A DNA stretch of 14,315 bases from Deltaproteobacteria bacterium (GTDB lineage Bacteria > Bdellovibrionota_F > JAHFAK01), in the NCBI GenBank assembly GCA_023250585.1, contig JAHFAK010000014.1, positions 11,650 through 25,964 of the forward strand. The letters are read 5' to 3'. The notes beneath the pieces are model-generated. The model was not told where the DNA came from. It worked only from the letters and a program-made list of their open reading frames with translations, and searched no databases. Every line of letters begins with the position of its first letter. Position 1 is the first letter of the stretch. This document shows positions 46 through 14,315 of the stretch, one piece after another. Position numbers and translations under genes: made by a program.

Positions 46-1395
46 ATGATTGAAATAAAGAATTTAACACCACGAGATATAGTCAAAGAACTTGATCGTT
101 ATATTGTTGGTCAGCAAGAAGCAAAACGTGCGGTAGCAATTGCACTACGAAATCGATGGAGACGTCAACAAGTTCAAGGAAATCTTCGAGAAGAAATTTC
201 TCCAAAAAATATTATAATGATTGGGCCAACAGGGGTTGGAAAAACCGAAATTGCCCGACGACTTGCCAAGCTTGCTAATGCGCCATTTATTAAAGTTGAA
301 GCAACAAAATACACCGAAGTTGGATATGTAGGAAAAGATGTAGAATCAATGGTTCGTGATCTTGTTGAAGTTGGCTTTAAATTAGTCAAAGATGAAGAAA
401 CAAAAAAAATTCATAAAAAAGCTGAAAAAATTGCTGAGGAGAAATTGATTGATATGCTTCTTCCGAGTCATGTTCAAGCACAGGTAAGCAGTACGGGAAT
501 AGTGCAAGATGCAAGTGCTGAAACACGAAATAAATTACATATGCTTCTTATGGAGGGAAAACTGGATGAGCAGCTAATCGAGTTGGATGTTCAAGAAAAA
601 GGAATGCCTTCAGTTGAAGTTTTTTCTGGAGCTGGCTTTGAATCGATGAGTTTTGATATGCGAGAAGCATTAGAAGGAATGTTTCCCAAAAAGAAGAAAA
701 AAAGAAAAGTTCAGGTTAAAGAAGCATTTGATATTCTCATCGTTGAAGAAGCCAATAAACTCATAGATATTGAAAAAGTAAAAAAAGAAGCACTCAATAG
801 AGTTGAACAATTGGGAATTATTTTTCTTGATGAGATTGATAAAGTTGCTGGCCGCGATGGAGTTCGTGGAATAGATGTTTCCCGAGAAGGCGTACAGCGG
901 GATATTTTACCTATTGTTGAAGGATCAAATGTTGCTACTAAATATGGCATGGTAAAAACCGATCATATTCTTTTTATTGCAGCGGGTGCTTTTACGATGT
1001 CAAAGCCTTCTGATCTCATTCCAGAATTACAAGGCCGGTTCCCCATCAGAGTTGAACTTAAAAAATTAACAAAAGAAGATTTTGTACGGATATTAACAGA
1101 ACCAGATAATTCTTTAATAAAACAATATCAGGCTCTTTTAAAAACTGAGGATATTGAACTTGAATTCACTGATAGCGCTCGTGAGAAGATCAGTGAAGTT
1201 GCGGCATATGTTAATGATAGAACAGAAAATATAGGAGCACGAAGACTTCATACAGTTATGGAAAGACTTCTCGATGAACTTTCATTTAATGCTTCGGAAA
1301 TATCCGAACGCACTATAGTGATTGATCCTAAATATATTGATGAAAGATTAAGTGATCTTGTCAAAGATGAAGATTTAACACGATATATTTTATAA
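46..1395 (+). CDS. hslU: HslU, ATPase/unfoldase subunit of the HslUV protease
   Basis: HslU is the AAA+ ring that unfolds proteins and feeds them to the HslV peptidase in the cytoplasm. The 449 residues match the family's usual length. Visible motifs are Walker A GPTGVGKT (60-67), the pore loop GYVG (93-96), the inserted I-domain (about 110-240), Walker B IIFLDE (258-263), the sensor region FIAAGAF (310-316), the arginine-finger region GRFP (330-333) and the sensor-2 region GARR (397-400). The C-terminus DLTRYIL is the type of tail that docks into HslV. A GAGGAG at 28-33 lies 12 bases before the ATG, a somewhat long spacing. hslV normally sits directly upstream and would lie just outside the left edge. 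The lysine-rich run near residues 215-221 is in the I-domain and is not a targeting signal. Confidence 0.98.
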
Positions 1396-4453: not shown

Positions 4454-4473
4454 AAACTTATATACATTGAACT

Positions 4474-7400
4474 GTGAATAATTTAGTAACGGTATTTGAA
4501 AGTTATTTAAAAAAATCAGGAAAGAGTCTTCATACCCAGGCTTCGTATCTTCAAAACGCTAAAAATTTTTTTGAGTATTTACAAGAAAGGCCAATCGAAA
4601 AAATTTCTACTGCTGATATTGAAGCCTATTTAGAAGAACGGAAAAAAGAAGGAATTGGCAATAAAACATATAATTTAATAATAACGTCACTACGCTTTTT
4701 TTATAAGTATTATTCTGAAAAAGAAAATATCCAAAATCCTACTCTTACGCTTCTTCCTATAATTATTGTCCCTCAATCGAGGGCGAGTGAAGACCTTACC
4801 AAACGCGTTGATCGATTTATTGATTTTGTTAGGAAAAGTAAAAAGATTCCTCTCCGAGATAAAGCTATTATTCTCTGCATGGGGTATCTTTCTCTTTCTA
4901 CAACAGAAGTTTTAAGTATCGAACTTAAGAATATTAAAATTGAAAAAAACATAATTACTATTAAATTTTTTTCAGTTCGTGAAAAAGAGAGTGTTTCATT
5001 AGAAATTAAGCAAATATGGGCGCTGCGAGATTTTGTTCGTATACTCCATGACTATCTGGCGATACGTTTAGCTATAAAGACGACCAATCAATTTCTTTTT
5101 ATTACTGAAAAAAATTCAACTATCGAAAGATTTTATTTCAATAAAATATTTAAAAGAATTAAGGAGTATGCCCATGTTACAGACATTCGTAGTTCTGATC
5201 TGAGGTTTTCACATTACAATATACATATAAAGAAATTGATTAGCAAAGCATATCCAACTGAAATTCTTTTTAATCGTTTCAAAATTGAAAAGAAACAGGA
5301 CTCCCATGCTCTTTTTGAAACATATGATGCATACGATTTTGAATTGAAACAAAGAGTTATACTTAAAAAATATTTTCTCAGTAAGAAAAAAAATATTACC
5401 CAAGAACTTATTAGAAATATACTTTCCTTACAGACAATCGTTCAAGATAAGAAAGTGGTCTTTCCGTATGTGGTTCATTTTGTCTTACCCAAACATGCGT
5501 ACCTTATCTATACATCGACAAGCACTCGTGCTCAATTCATCGTTGAAGAATTTCTAACATCACTTTTTTTTAATGTACATACAGACTGTGTAAAAAATCA
5601 GTGGTATATACCCGTTAAAGAGACTGAACCAGCTGTTATCCCTCAGAAAGAAATTAAAATGGCATATGAATCAGTTTTCAGCGAAAATGAGAGCCATCAC
5701 TATTTTTCTGAAGTTGGCATCATAAAAGCTAATCAATCGAGCGAGGTTATACGATTCTTATATCGATGTATTTCTAAAACCCAAACTAAGCTTGTTTATT
5801 ATAAAAAAGATTCTCTTGAGTATCCTCTTTATATAGAATTTCTTCAAAAATATTCAGTTCCTGTTGAAAAGAAACTCGTGGAAGATAATAGTCCTTCTTT
5901 TGATTTTAAGGACCTTTTTACTCACTTTTCAAAACGTAGTATAGAAAAAATGAGTAACTCACTCGTGCTGATTCATTGCAATGAATTGCATCCAGATGAT
6001 GAACGTTTTTTTACAATCTTTTTCTCTGTTCTGAGAGAGGTTCTTAGCAAAAAAATATTGATACTTTGGGTAACTCATAATGAGGAAACTATTAATTTTT
6101 TGATGAAACATAATGCATTTTTGGTTGGAACAGTGAAAAATCATCCTAAACATACGGTTACGATTGAAAAAAATGATCATAAACTTTTTAAAATTTTTGT
6201 TACATACCGAAGACCATTTCCTCTCACGAGTCTTATGAACATTATGGAATCACCGGTTTTTTTACCGAGGCTTTTTTTCTATGTTCGCGAAGGCCTCCTT
6301 GTCTTTTCACAAGAAGATAACTCTATGTGTGTTTCTATAAAAGATACAGCACTTATCACTCCACTGCTTTCCTATGAAAAAGGTGAATTAAGAAAAATAC
6401 ATAAACGTATCTTGTTTTTGGTAAAACAAAAAAATTCGAGAGAAGATAGTTTAAAACTTTTATTTCATCTGACAGAGGCGAAGAGAAAGAAGCTTGCTTT
6501 TAAACATTTTAAAGACAGTATTAATGATTTGAAGGCTGTCGGTTTAGCCAGTTCAATTCTGACCTATATTGAATCTCTTAAGTATCTTGCTGCCAAAGCT
6601 GGAGATAAAGAGTATCTCCAAGAACTTGCTTTATTTTGCTACATCTTTCGAAATGATTATGAAAAAGCGATACGCCTTTGTCTTGAATTACGAGAACATT
6701 CAAAAGAAACAAAAAAGGAATTGAATCTTTATATCCTTTTGAGCCGCATTTATAAGCTTTTGTTGCTTATGGAACAAGCCGCACTGTATTTAGAGAAAGC
6801 AGAAGATCTTGCACGAAAGCTTGATGATAAAGCTAAACAAGAAGAAATCGGACGTGATCTTAAAGGTCTCATGAAAATCAAAAAAGAAAAGGCGCAAGAT
6901 ATTTTTCTTACTTCACTCGAACAGGATTACGCAACTATTATGGATTTTTATAATAAAGGAGAACATATCATTACCTTTGATATGATTTCTTTTTTCTTTG
7001 AAAAACATGATGCAAAAATAAAACGTATGTCTTTGCAGGAACAGTATCGATTAATTATTGATCCAAGAATACTTAACCTTTTTGGAATAAAAAATAGGTT
7101 AGCAAAAATTTTACATAAAGAAGAGCCGCAGAAAACATCAATTGATAGAGTCTTTTCCATCATGTATTCCTCATTATTTTTTGAACGAATAAAAAATTCT
7201 TCAGAAAAAGATTCTCTATGGAATATTCTCAGCGAAGAAATCTTGCATCAGTTATCCATTGGAGAAGTCGAGGTAGTGCTCAATAATTTTGGTTTATTAG
7301 AAAAACTCTACGGTACGCTTTCGCCCGAAGTTCTTTTTATAGTAAAAAAGCTTCTCTATACTCGGGAACGTTTCATATATAATGATAATTACCTTGCAAT

Positions 7401-7533
7401 TACAACGCGACTTTTTAAAAAAGAAATAATATTTGTGTTTCCTAAAGGAGAACCGGAACAATGGCTTCAATGTTTACGCTTTATTGATCTTATCGAGCAT
7501 TTCCTGGAGGTGAGCCAAATAAAGCTTGAGTAA
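4474..7533 (+). CDS. Degenerate recombinase / kinase-like / STAND-TPR fusion, unknown function
   Basis: The 1019 residues seem to combine several families, none intact. Residues 1-95 look like the SAM-like core-binding domain of XerC/D-type tyrosine recombinases (SGKSLHTQASYLQNAKNFFEYL). Residues 105-255 follow the recombinase catalytic fold, but the first Arg of the xGLRxSEL box is Ser142, the HxLRH box reads SDLRF (241-245), and no tyrosine box follows. Residues 266-350 resemble a protein-kinase N-lobe, with a VILKKY strand (Lys298/299) and a helix containing Glu311, but no HRD or DFG follows. Residues 405-580 resemble a STAND/AAA_16 ATPase. The Walker-B-like stretch is SLVLIHCNELHPDD (496-509), and the expected P-loop near 439-450 has no GxxGxGK. 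Residues 640-800 are helical and TPR-like. Residues 885-1019 may be a GAF relic. The GTG start has no clear ribosome site and lies 20 bases after nadE, so coupling is likely. The order resembles PknK/COG3899-type signalling proteins. A binding scaffold or regulator is an inference. Confidence 0.75.
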   Translation: MNNLVTVFESYLKKSGKSLHTQASYLQNAKNFFEYLQERPIEKISTADIEAYLEERKKEGIGNKTYNLIITSLRFFYKYYSEKENIQNPTLTLLPIIIVPQSRASEDLTKRVDRFIDFVRKSKKIPLRDKAIILCMGYLSLSTTEVLSIELKNIKIEKNIITIKFFSVREKESVSLEIKQIWALRDFVRILHDYLAIRLAIKTTNQFLFITEKNSTIERFYFNKIFKRIKEYAHVTDIRSSDLRFSHYNIHIKKLISKAYPTEILFNRFKIEKKQDSHALFETYDAYDFELKQRVILKKYFLSKKKNITQELIRNILSLQTIVQDKKVVFPYVVHFVLPKHAYLIYTSTSTRAQFIVEEFLTSLFFNVHTDCVKNQWYIPVKETEPAVIPQKEIKMAYESVFSENESHHYFSEVGIIKANQSSEVIRFLYRCISKTQTKLVYYKKDSLEYPLYIEFLQKYSVPVEKKLVEDNSPSFDFKDLFTHFSKRSIEKMSNSLVLIHCNELHPDDERFFTIFFSVLREVLSKKILILWVTHNEETINFLMKHNAFLVGTVKNHPKHTVTIEKNDHKLFKIFVTYRRPFPLTSLMNIMESPVFLPRLFFYVREGLLVFSQEDNSMCVSIKDTALITPLLSYEKGELRKIHKRILFLVKQKNSREDSLKLLFHLTEAKRKKLAFKHFKDSINDLKAVGLASSILTYIESLKYLAAKAGDKEYLQELALFCYIFRNDYEKAIRLCLELREHSKETKKELNLYILLSRIYKLLLLMEQAALYLEKAEDLARKLDDKAKQEEIGRDLKGLMKIKKEKAQDIFLTSLEQDYATIMDFYNKGEHIITFDMISFFFEKHDAKIKRMSLQEQYRLIIDPRILNLFGIKNRLAKILHKEEPQKTSIDRVFSIMYSSLFFERIKNSSEKDSLWNILSEEILHQLSIGEVEVVLNNFGLLEKLYGTLSPEVLFIVKKLLYTRERFIYNDNYLAITTRLFKKEIIFVFPKGEPEQWLQCLRFIDLIEHFLEVSQIKLE

Positions 7534-12338: not shown

Positions 12339-14315
12339 TTAGAAAATGGTTCGATATCTTTTTAATTCAGTCACATTATAGACCGTAATTGAACTCGATT
12401 CAGTATTCAAGATATATGCATAGAGCTTATCTTCATAGCTTTTAAAAATGATTTTTGTTGGATTATTTCCTACTAACATATCACTTGCAGCCTCAGTAGT
12501 ATTCAATGAAAAGAAATCATCTTTCGTCGTTTGGCTTAACATGGAAGAAAAAATTTTAAAGGATATTTCATGAGCATCACTTGCGTAGTTTTGATTTTCT
12601 AAAGCGCGATTTGTTTGATAGCCAGATTTAGATCCATAGACAACATATGATTTTTGCGCTTTAATACTATAGTCCAGATTTGTATTTTCTTCAAGTGTAC
12701 TTCCTTCAGGAATTTCAACTGTTAGCGTAGTATTATTAATGATCTCGACTAGAGAGAGATTTACATCTTTACTTTGTATATAATCATAAAAAGTCGGTTC
12801 GGTGCTTTTGACTTTTAACTTCATAGTTGAGAAGTTTTTTGTTGTGTCAGTGAAAGAAGTTCCTGAAAGTACACCCGCACTACTTATTGAATCTGGAATA
12901 ACGCCTTCATAAGTTATTGTCCATTTTTCGGTTTTCGTTGCGCTATCATCTGTCTGAAGATTTTTTAAAGTAGGTGAACTTTCCGCGCCAGAATTAACGA
13001 AAAGGACAGAATTCGCGCTACTTTTTACTTTCTGATTGGATGGTGACGCATCGATGAAAACACTATTTTGATTGAGAATATCGAAGGTATCAATAATGCG
13101 TACATTATTTGATAAGAGCCCCGCAAACATGAGTCCTCGAGTACTTGTACTGCGTTCTTGCAGTGATTCATGAGAAAGCGCCTGTGGATCATACGTCACA
13201 TCCAATGTAGAAACAGGCTCGTATACATCGAGCGTTTTTTGTACTTCTTTAGTTTCAAAATTAATAATAGTTATTTTTCCATCTTTTTGATCGGTAAGAT
13301 ACAAAAGATCAGCAGTGGAGTCATATAATGCAAAATTTACGAGAGTAGATACCGTAAACGAACTTATGTCATTCGTTGTAAAGAGTTTATTATCGGTAAC
13401 ATCAATAATGTATATTTTAAAAAGATCTGATTCCCCATTTCCATCGCTGTCAGTTCCTGTATTTTCTGGAGCAATCAAAAGTGTTCGGTTATTTCGTGTA
13501 ATTACATTTATTCGTTGCAGTTCTTCAGTAAATGAAACATCTCCTAACAGAAGCAGTGATTCTCCATTGAATTCATATACAGAAACTTTTGATTGTAGAG
13601 TAGAATCAACGGTGAGAATATAAAGAAATGAACCAACTGAAGTTATGTTTCGTATGGAAGAATCAAATTTGAGAGGTTTTGATTGAGATGAATGAAAAAG
13701 AAAATAATCATTCTTCGTAGTTTTAGCTGTTCCCGATTCAACAAAAAAAGATAGATTGGAAAGGGACGTTTGCGCATTTTCAGTTATTTCCTCAGTAATC
13801 GGCACAGCTGTTTCTGTATAATCAGGATATGATTCTAGACGATAACTATTTTTTTCGTATGTTAATTTCCATAATGTATTTTTTGAATCCATGGAATTAA
13901 TCTTAATATCCTTAAGACGTGGATTGGAAGTATTTCCTTTATTAAAGAATTCGGGTTTGCTTGCAACGATTAATGTTTCTAGACCAATATCAATCAGCTC
14001 ATATCGAGGCGGCACTGATGGAGTAACTTTAACAGCAAAAAGATATGAACTCCCGTCGATAGTGCTTGTTATAAAAAGAAACTCTGTATCATTGATAAGA
14101 ATTGACTCTATTTCATTTAAGATGCCACCAACAAAGAATGCTTGGTTTTTATCAACAGCATCAAGATAGTCTAGAATTTTGAAGTCAGCAAAATTCAGTG
14201 TTGAAAGAGTCCCTGTATTTTTATTAATGATATATCCGTAATCGCTCAGGGAAGACTGAGTAGAATTTATAAAATCACTTGGAATAAAGAGTTTTCGTTC
14301 GAGATCAGAGCCTCC
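12339..14315 (-). CDS. Large beta-rich, propeller-like exported protein (5' end cut by window edge)
   Basis: The frame runs open from the right edge to a TAA at 12339-12341, giving at least 658 residues. The codon at 14013-14015 is an internal GTG, since the frame upstream is open and similar in character, so the true start lies outside. The protein is rich in Ser, Thr, Asp and Asn, with repeated strand-turn-strand units of YVTN/NHL propeller type (LYILTVDSTLQSKVSVYEF; LLYLTDQKDGKITIINFETK; LYAYILNTESSSITVYNV). A DSDGNGESD loop resembles a calcium-binding turn. Two copies of an inserted module are recognisable, with matching SNPRLKDI/SSPTLKNL and WKLTYE/WTITYE stretches. A GVLSGTSFTDTTKNFS segment resembles beta modules seen in large surface proteins. 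No cysteine or membrane helix stands out. An envelope or surface role is inferred from composition. No enzyme family is recognised. Confidence 0.8.
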   Translation of the reverse strand, partial: GGSDLERKLFIPSDFINSTQSSLSDYGYIINKNTGTLSTLNFADFKILDYLDAVDKNQAFFVGGILNEIESILINDTEFLFITSTIDGSSYLFAVKVTPSVPPRYELIDIGLETLIVASKPEFFNKGNTSNPRLKDIKINSMDSKNTLWKLTYEKNSYRLESYPDYTETAVPITEEITENAQTSLSNLSFFVESGTAKTTKNDYFLFHSSQSKPLKFDSSIRNITSVGSFLYILTVDSTLQSKVSVYEFNGESLLLLGDVSFTEELQRINVITRNNRTLLIAPENTGTDSDGNGESDLFKIYIIDVTDNKLFTTNDISSFTVSTLVNFALYDSTADLLYLTDQKDGKITIINFETKEVQKTLDVYEPVSTLDVTYDPQALSHESLQERSTSTRGLMFAGLLSNNVRIIDTFDILNQNSVFIDASPSNQKVKSSANSVLFVNSGAESSPTLKNLQTDDSATKTEKWTITYEGVIPDSISSAGVLSGTSFTDTTKNFSTMKLKVKSTEPTFYDYIQSKDVNLSLVEIINNTTLTVEIPEGSTLEENTNLDYSIKAQKSYVVYGSKSGYQTNRALENQNYASDAHEISFKIFSSMLSQTTKDDFFSLNTTEAASDMLVGNNPTKIIFKSYEDKLYAYILNTESSSITVYNVTELKRYRTIF

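Follow-up and report, generated by a model that had tools for sequence, protein, structure and literature searches.

A predicted catalytically dead Xer recombinase domain fused to a TPR-containing region in a deltaproteobacterial genome

The window, a stretch of 14,315 nucleotides, carries a gene whose product joins an Xer-type recombinase domain to a long C-terminal region (Table 1). Its neighbors are housekeeping genes (purA, nadE, ftsY, a cysteine desulfurase gene, and thiI), and no nuclease, toxin, or mobile-element gene was found among them. The fusion gene begins 21 bases after the nadE stop codon, and its 3′ end converges with that of ftsY on the opposite strand in an overlap of 44 bases (window 7490–7533). 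Because a TGA lies in frame just upstream (4468–4470), GTG 4474 is the sole start that includes the first helix. Two further observations concern nearby genes. HslU (window 46–1395) contains a lysine-rich PKKKKKRKV in its inserted domain that resembles a nuclear localization signal, probably by chance. Two large adjacent exported-type proteins are encoded on the minus strand at window 12339–14315 and at positions 189–1424 of locus L050; Pfam and PHROG return no match for the first, and the second resembles a YVTN-type β-propeller lipoprotein.

Table 1. Features of the fusion gene and its product, in window coordinates
Feature	Residues	Position	Strand	Remarks
Whole fusion gene		4474..7533	+	1019 aa; GTG start; ORF uninterrupted
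Core-binding SAM-like DNA-binding domain of Xer recombinase	1–88	4474..4737	+	Pfam PF02899, E 3e-11
Recombinase catalytic-fold domain	103–246	4780..5211	+	Ends after box II; Pfam PF00589, 2e-8
Ser142 for catalytic Arg I (box I)	142	4897..4899	+	Arg in 34/34 relatives
Ser167 for catalytic Lys, GKG loop (β2-β3)	167	4972..4974	+	Lys in 34/34 relatives
Degenerate box II, SDLRF for HxLRH	241–245	5194..5208	+	Only Arg244 kept
Protein-kinase N-lobe-like segment (β1-β3)	264–301	5263..5376	+	hhalign E 0.006; without glycine loop
Stretch with Walker-B-like string SLVLIHCNELHPDD (residues 496–509, 5959–6000)	346–566	5509..6171	+	
Possible winged-helix segment of STAND layout	567–655	6172..6438	+	Expected register; score not above decoys
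TPR region	721–817	6634..6924	+	hhalign to STAND-TPR profile, E 5.6e-5
C-terminal tail	850–1019	7021..7533	+	Without Pfam match

The 1019-codon open reading frame is a real gene, with a coding-like signal over its whole length. A preliminary description of this DNA had reported it as uninterrupted, and it was recovered with exactly the same coordinates. Scored by the contig's own codon usage, this frame ranks highest in each 100-codon block except for the last 19 codons, a block too short for judging the coding frame. The synonymous bias is 0.235 (neighbors, 0.205–0.383), and a stop-free run of 1019 random codons of the same composition has a chance of ∼1e-35. The proposal that the gene is under selection is supported only insofar as the frame and the synonymous codon usage are maintained. 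In most blocks, GC at codon positions 1 and 2 lies below that of the neighboring genes, and the amino acid composition has drifted toward AT-rich codons; the low GC at these positions suggests a relaxed or weak constraint on the protein.

Residues 1–246 can be assigned securely to the XerC/D-type tyrosine recombinases. The SAM-like N-terminal domain and the recombinase catalytic fold that had been described are borne out by Pfam, the XerD family model, profile alignment, structure prediction, and comparison with solved structures. The Pfam, NCBIfam, and PHROG models concur on an Xer recombinase N terminus, for which the XerD model scores best (3e-19). Against a profile of 95 Xer-like recombinases, hhalign matched residues 2–246 (E 4.2e-16), the match ending at box II. 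AlphaFold modeled residues 1–270 with 34 Xer relatives at a pLDDT of 83. Residues 1–88 form four helices in the model, and residues 1–97 match 3nrw with a Z score of 12.5. The best solved structural relatives of the N-terminal domain are XerH on difH DNA (Z 16.9), lambda Int, and Cre, and it also matches the repressor MrpR (Z 10.3) and DNA-bound SroF, annotated in the PDB as a phage repressor (Z 11.7). The net charge of residues 1–250 is +13 (14.5 ± 5 in 95 active Xers), and the conserved non-catalytic residues T21, Y25, F32, R128, and F209 are retained.

The recombinase domain is predicted to be catalytically dead. Of seven core catalytic positions, five are substituted or absent; comparison with 34 relatives shows that Glu145 and Arg244 persist. 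The replacement of Arg by Ser142, the change of HxLRH to SDLRF, and the loss of the tyrosine box had all been noticed before and were confirmed; the exchange of the catalytic Lys for Ser167 comes in addition. Both box II histidines are gone (His241 to Ser, the second His to Phe), as is the GKG loop that active Xers conserve. Downstream of box II, the alignment with the 34 relatives offers no clear counterpart of the LGH box or the tyrosine box. An alternative alignment pairs His247 with the LGH-box His if a deletion follows box II, but the conclusion is unchanged because neither alignment restores Arg, Lys, or Tyr. A continuation of the Xer domain past residue 246 with Tyr284 as nucleophile, derived from a MAFFT alignment, was rejected: residues 248–330 are off-register with Xer, and 5 of 80 shuffles scored as high. 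The same residues are in register with a kinase N-lobe, a score that none of 80 shuffles equaled.

At E ≤ 0.001, the genome contains exactly three Phage_integrase matches, which are an intact XerC, an intact XerD, and the fusion protein. The contig that bears the fusion gene also carries the intact xerC, which sits just upstream of the window in the gene order xerC-hslV-hslU. Given these two enzymes, chromosome-dimer resolution is independent of the fusion protein, and the dead copy would have been free to lose catalysis. In the tree, the recombinase domain sits on a very long branch (4.67 changes per site), and neither of the two intact Xers of the genome, XerD (p-AU 0.665) or XerC (p-AU 0.298), is rejected as sister of the domain.

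The C-terminal part was compared with profiles built from the kinase/cyclase-STAND-TPR proteins of the genome and their relatives in other genomes. Residues 264–301 align in register with residues 1–40 of the kinase domain. None of 200 shuffles scored as high; 4 of 400 natural decoys did, although none of the 400 in the same register. The kinase-N-lobe-like segment of the preliminary description, a putative relic of a protein-kinase N-lobe, thus has moderate support. No kinase C-lobe follows it: the protein has no Pkinase match, and neither HRD nor DFG occurs in its sequence.

Residues ∼721–817 form a TPR region, in line with the TPR-like helices noticed before. The profile match was equaled by none of 40 shuffles and, in a further test, by 2 of 200 natural decoys and none of 100 shuffles; Pfam adds weak matches to TPR_12 and TPR-S. 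The STAND NTPase claimed for the region between kinase segment and TPRs found no such backing. No P-loop (G....GK[ST]) occurs anywhere in the fusion protein, residues 385–560 fit NTPase profiles no better than shuffles or decoys, and a search with a nine-sequence profile, a larger profile from other genomes, and MalT-like paralogues returned no signal, as did Pfam at E ≤ 10. The term “Walker-B-like” describes an appearance; the position of residues 346–566 suggests a degenerate NTPase, which none of these tests supports. Winged helix and TPR together (residues 567–796) align in register (E 3.8e-5), whereas the winged-helix part by itself was equaled by 3 of 100 shuffles with the small profile and did not rise above decoys with the larger one. 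A STAND identity is suggested by the layout and not established by these results. For the proposed GAF-like tail, Pfam searches to E 10 matched nothing in residues 850–1019, and a single-sequence AlphaFold model of residues 255–1019 (pLDDT 36) is uninformative on STAND or kinase folds. The suggested fusion of a pseudo-enzyme recombinase with a signaling/TPR module consequently holds at both ends of the protein, whereas its STAND and GAF parts had been assigned by eye only.

The same genome encodes at least seven kinase- or cyclase-AAA_16-TPR (STAND-TPR) proteins of 1115–1351 amino acids (L093–L099, on contigs C160, C67, C102, C63, C91, C61, and C162), some of which are cut by contig ends. This kinase-STAND-TPR and cyclase-STAND-TPR set could have donated the C-terminal part of the fusion. 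Since the members on C160 and C102 begin at a contig end, the assembly breaks within this repeated family. A separate STAND-TPR-Trans_reg_C (MalT/SARP-like) family is represented by L104 (1872–5387, minus strand), L305, and L306. Related genes lie on contigs C149 (a close pair) and C51, and the family was found in none of 240 other genomes searched.

Homologues sharing the fusion, whose existence the preliminary description had left to be checked, did not emerge. The C-terminal region has no homologue among the 386 genomes searched, the phylum's only other genome being one of them, and none among plasmids, phages, and the viral and species-genome collections, where the scans pick up close relatives only. 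A whole-protein search of 59 genomes gave N-terminal matches outside the own genome that were all ordinary frames of 173–432 amino acids. Literature searches brought up no recombinase-STAND or recombinase-TPR fusion. The fusion described here is a single known instance.

Like XerC and XerD (TIGR02224 and TIGR02225; XerH, PDB codes 5jk0 and 5jjv), the fusion protein possesses a SAM-like core-binding domain and a catalytic fold through box II, together with the charge and many conserved non-catalytic residues. In contrast to them, it carries other residues for the RI Arg, the Lys, and the box II His, lacks box III and the tyrosine region, and is fused to ∼770 further residues. A parallel to the loss of RI Arg and box II His is MrpR (PDB code 8a0a), the DNA-binding master repressor of prophage SPbeta, which has a recombinase fold without catalysis and carries Val/Ser for the RI Arg and Asn for the box II His (PMC10516654). 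SroF of phage phi3T (PDB codes 9rd5 and 9rgl) is likewise described as a repressor in its PDB entry. MrpR keeps Lys and Tyr, whereas the fusion protein keeps neither; both phage repressors are stand-alone proteins of ∼320 amino acids, whereas the fusion ends its Xer part at box II, adds TPRs, and occurs in a non-phage setting.

In STAND proteins, effectors, including nucleic acid-binding ones, are found at either end and adjoin a switch that binds nucleotides and a sensor made of repeats (PMC4381067). The fusion protein resembles MalT and PknK (PMC4381067) and COG3899-type kinase-STAND-TPR proteins in its TPRs at the expected place, the kinase-N-lobe-like segment, and a terminal effector. It differs from them in having no P-loop, no detectable NTPase, and no kinase C-lobe, and its effector would be a dead recombinase. 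Crypton-derived animal DUF3504 proteins are domesticated tyrosine recombinases that have lost most of the R-H-R-Y tetrad and occur in regulators (PMC3212892), but they are eukaryotic, of unrelated origin, and without a TPR/STAND layout.

Taken as a whole, the protein probably acts as a DNA- or protein-binding regulator and not as an enzyme. Our preferred, still tentative reading, to which we give somewhat less than an even chance, is a regulator derived from a retired Xer, in which a non-cutting DNA-binding effector would be governed by the C-terminal TPR signaling region. Because MrpR-type folds repress without catalysis, such an effector is the most likely function. The dead Xer part would still recognize and hold a particular DNA site, which might be dif-like, but leave it uncut; the retained core-binding domain is one that contacts DNA in active Xers, and the basic charge of the Xer part as a whole is compatible with binding. 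The C-terminal region would represent a decayed kinase/STAND-type signaling protein whose TPRs bind a partner or ligand and which either controls DNA binding by the Xer part or recruits other proteins to the bound site. An MrpR-like fold would thereby sit where MalT-type STAND regulators have their DNA-binding effector. We infer DNA binding, signal, and target alike. In favor of such a regulator we count the Xer fold, the kept charge and non-catalytic residues, and the maintained frame and codon usage; against it count the lack of a homologue that could show a conserved binding surface, the undetected NTPase, the lost GKG loop, the long branch, and the low GC at positions 1 and 2. It is doubtful whether the protein goes as far as a chromosomal, non-phage signaling regulator in which a TPR/STAND-derived module controls a dead Xer effector and which might, at dif, link a signal to dimer resolution.

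The main rival is that the gene is a fast-evolving relic, a 3′-truncated xer fused to a decayed kinase-STAND-TPR gene that is translated without a selected function and is heading for loss. Degenerate catalytic motifs in every module, the very long branch, the absence of a copy from any other genome searched, the AT-rich amino acid drift, and the undetectable NTPase would all fit. However, a reading frame of 1019 codons free of stops and frameshifts, a neighbor-like codon bias throughout, and a recombinase fold that is still confidently predicted and has kept its charge make this account unlikely.

Xer recombinases act as heterotetramers, and the C-terminal part of an Xer monomer contacts its neighbor and FtsK γ. 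The dead Xer domain might pair at dif with XerC or XerD so as to block or time dimer resolution, with the TPRs as a partner dock. The intact XerC just upstream of hslVU on the same contig, the presence of XerD, the XerD model as the best-scoring one, and the unrejected sister relation to the own XerD are consistent with such a role. It is nonetheless distinctly improbable, because precisely the contacting C-terminal part of the monomer is missing and an origin from XerC is likewise not rejected.

STAND/TPR layouts are common in defense. Inactive STANDs (iSTAND) are present in conflict systems (PMC7159879), and the protein could accordingly be a STAND-style defense sensor whose Xer domain recognizes foreign DNA. 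This is very unlikely, as the protein matches no PADLOC defense family, its NTPase is undetectable, and it lies among housekeeping genes without a nuclease, toxin, or mobile element. An assembly chimera of two genes, conceivable in a 164-contig assembly with the fusion seen once, is hardly credible given the frame kept over all junctions, the uniform codon usage, and the absence of a separate intact copy of either half from the genome.

The finding carries limited weight, since the protein is known from a single copy and its middle part is without assignment. From MrpR and similar phage repressors it is clear that a recombinase fold can turn into a DNA-binding regulator. If the fusion protein is indeed a regulator on a retired Xer, a chromosomal Xer serving as the effector of a signaling protein would extend this route to cellular signaling and would raise the question of whether a dead Xer can tune dimer resolution.
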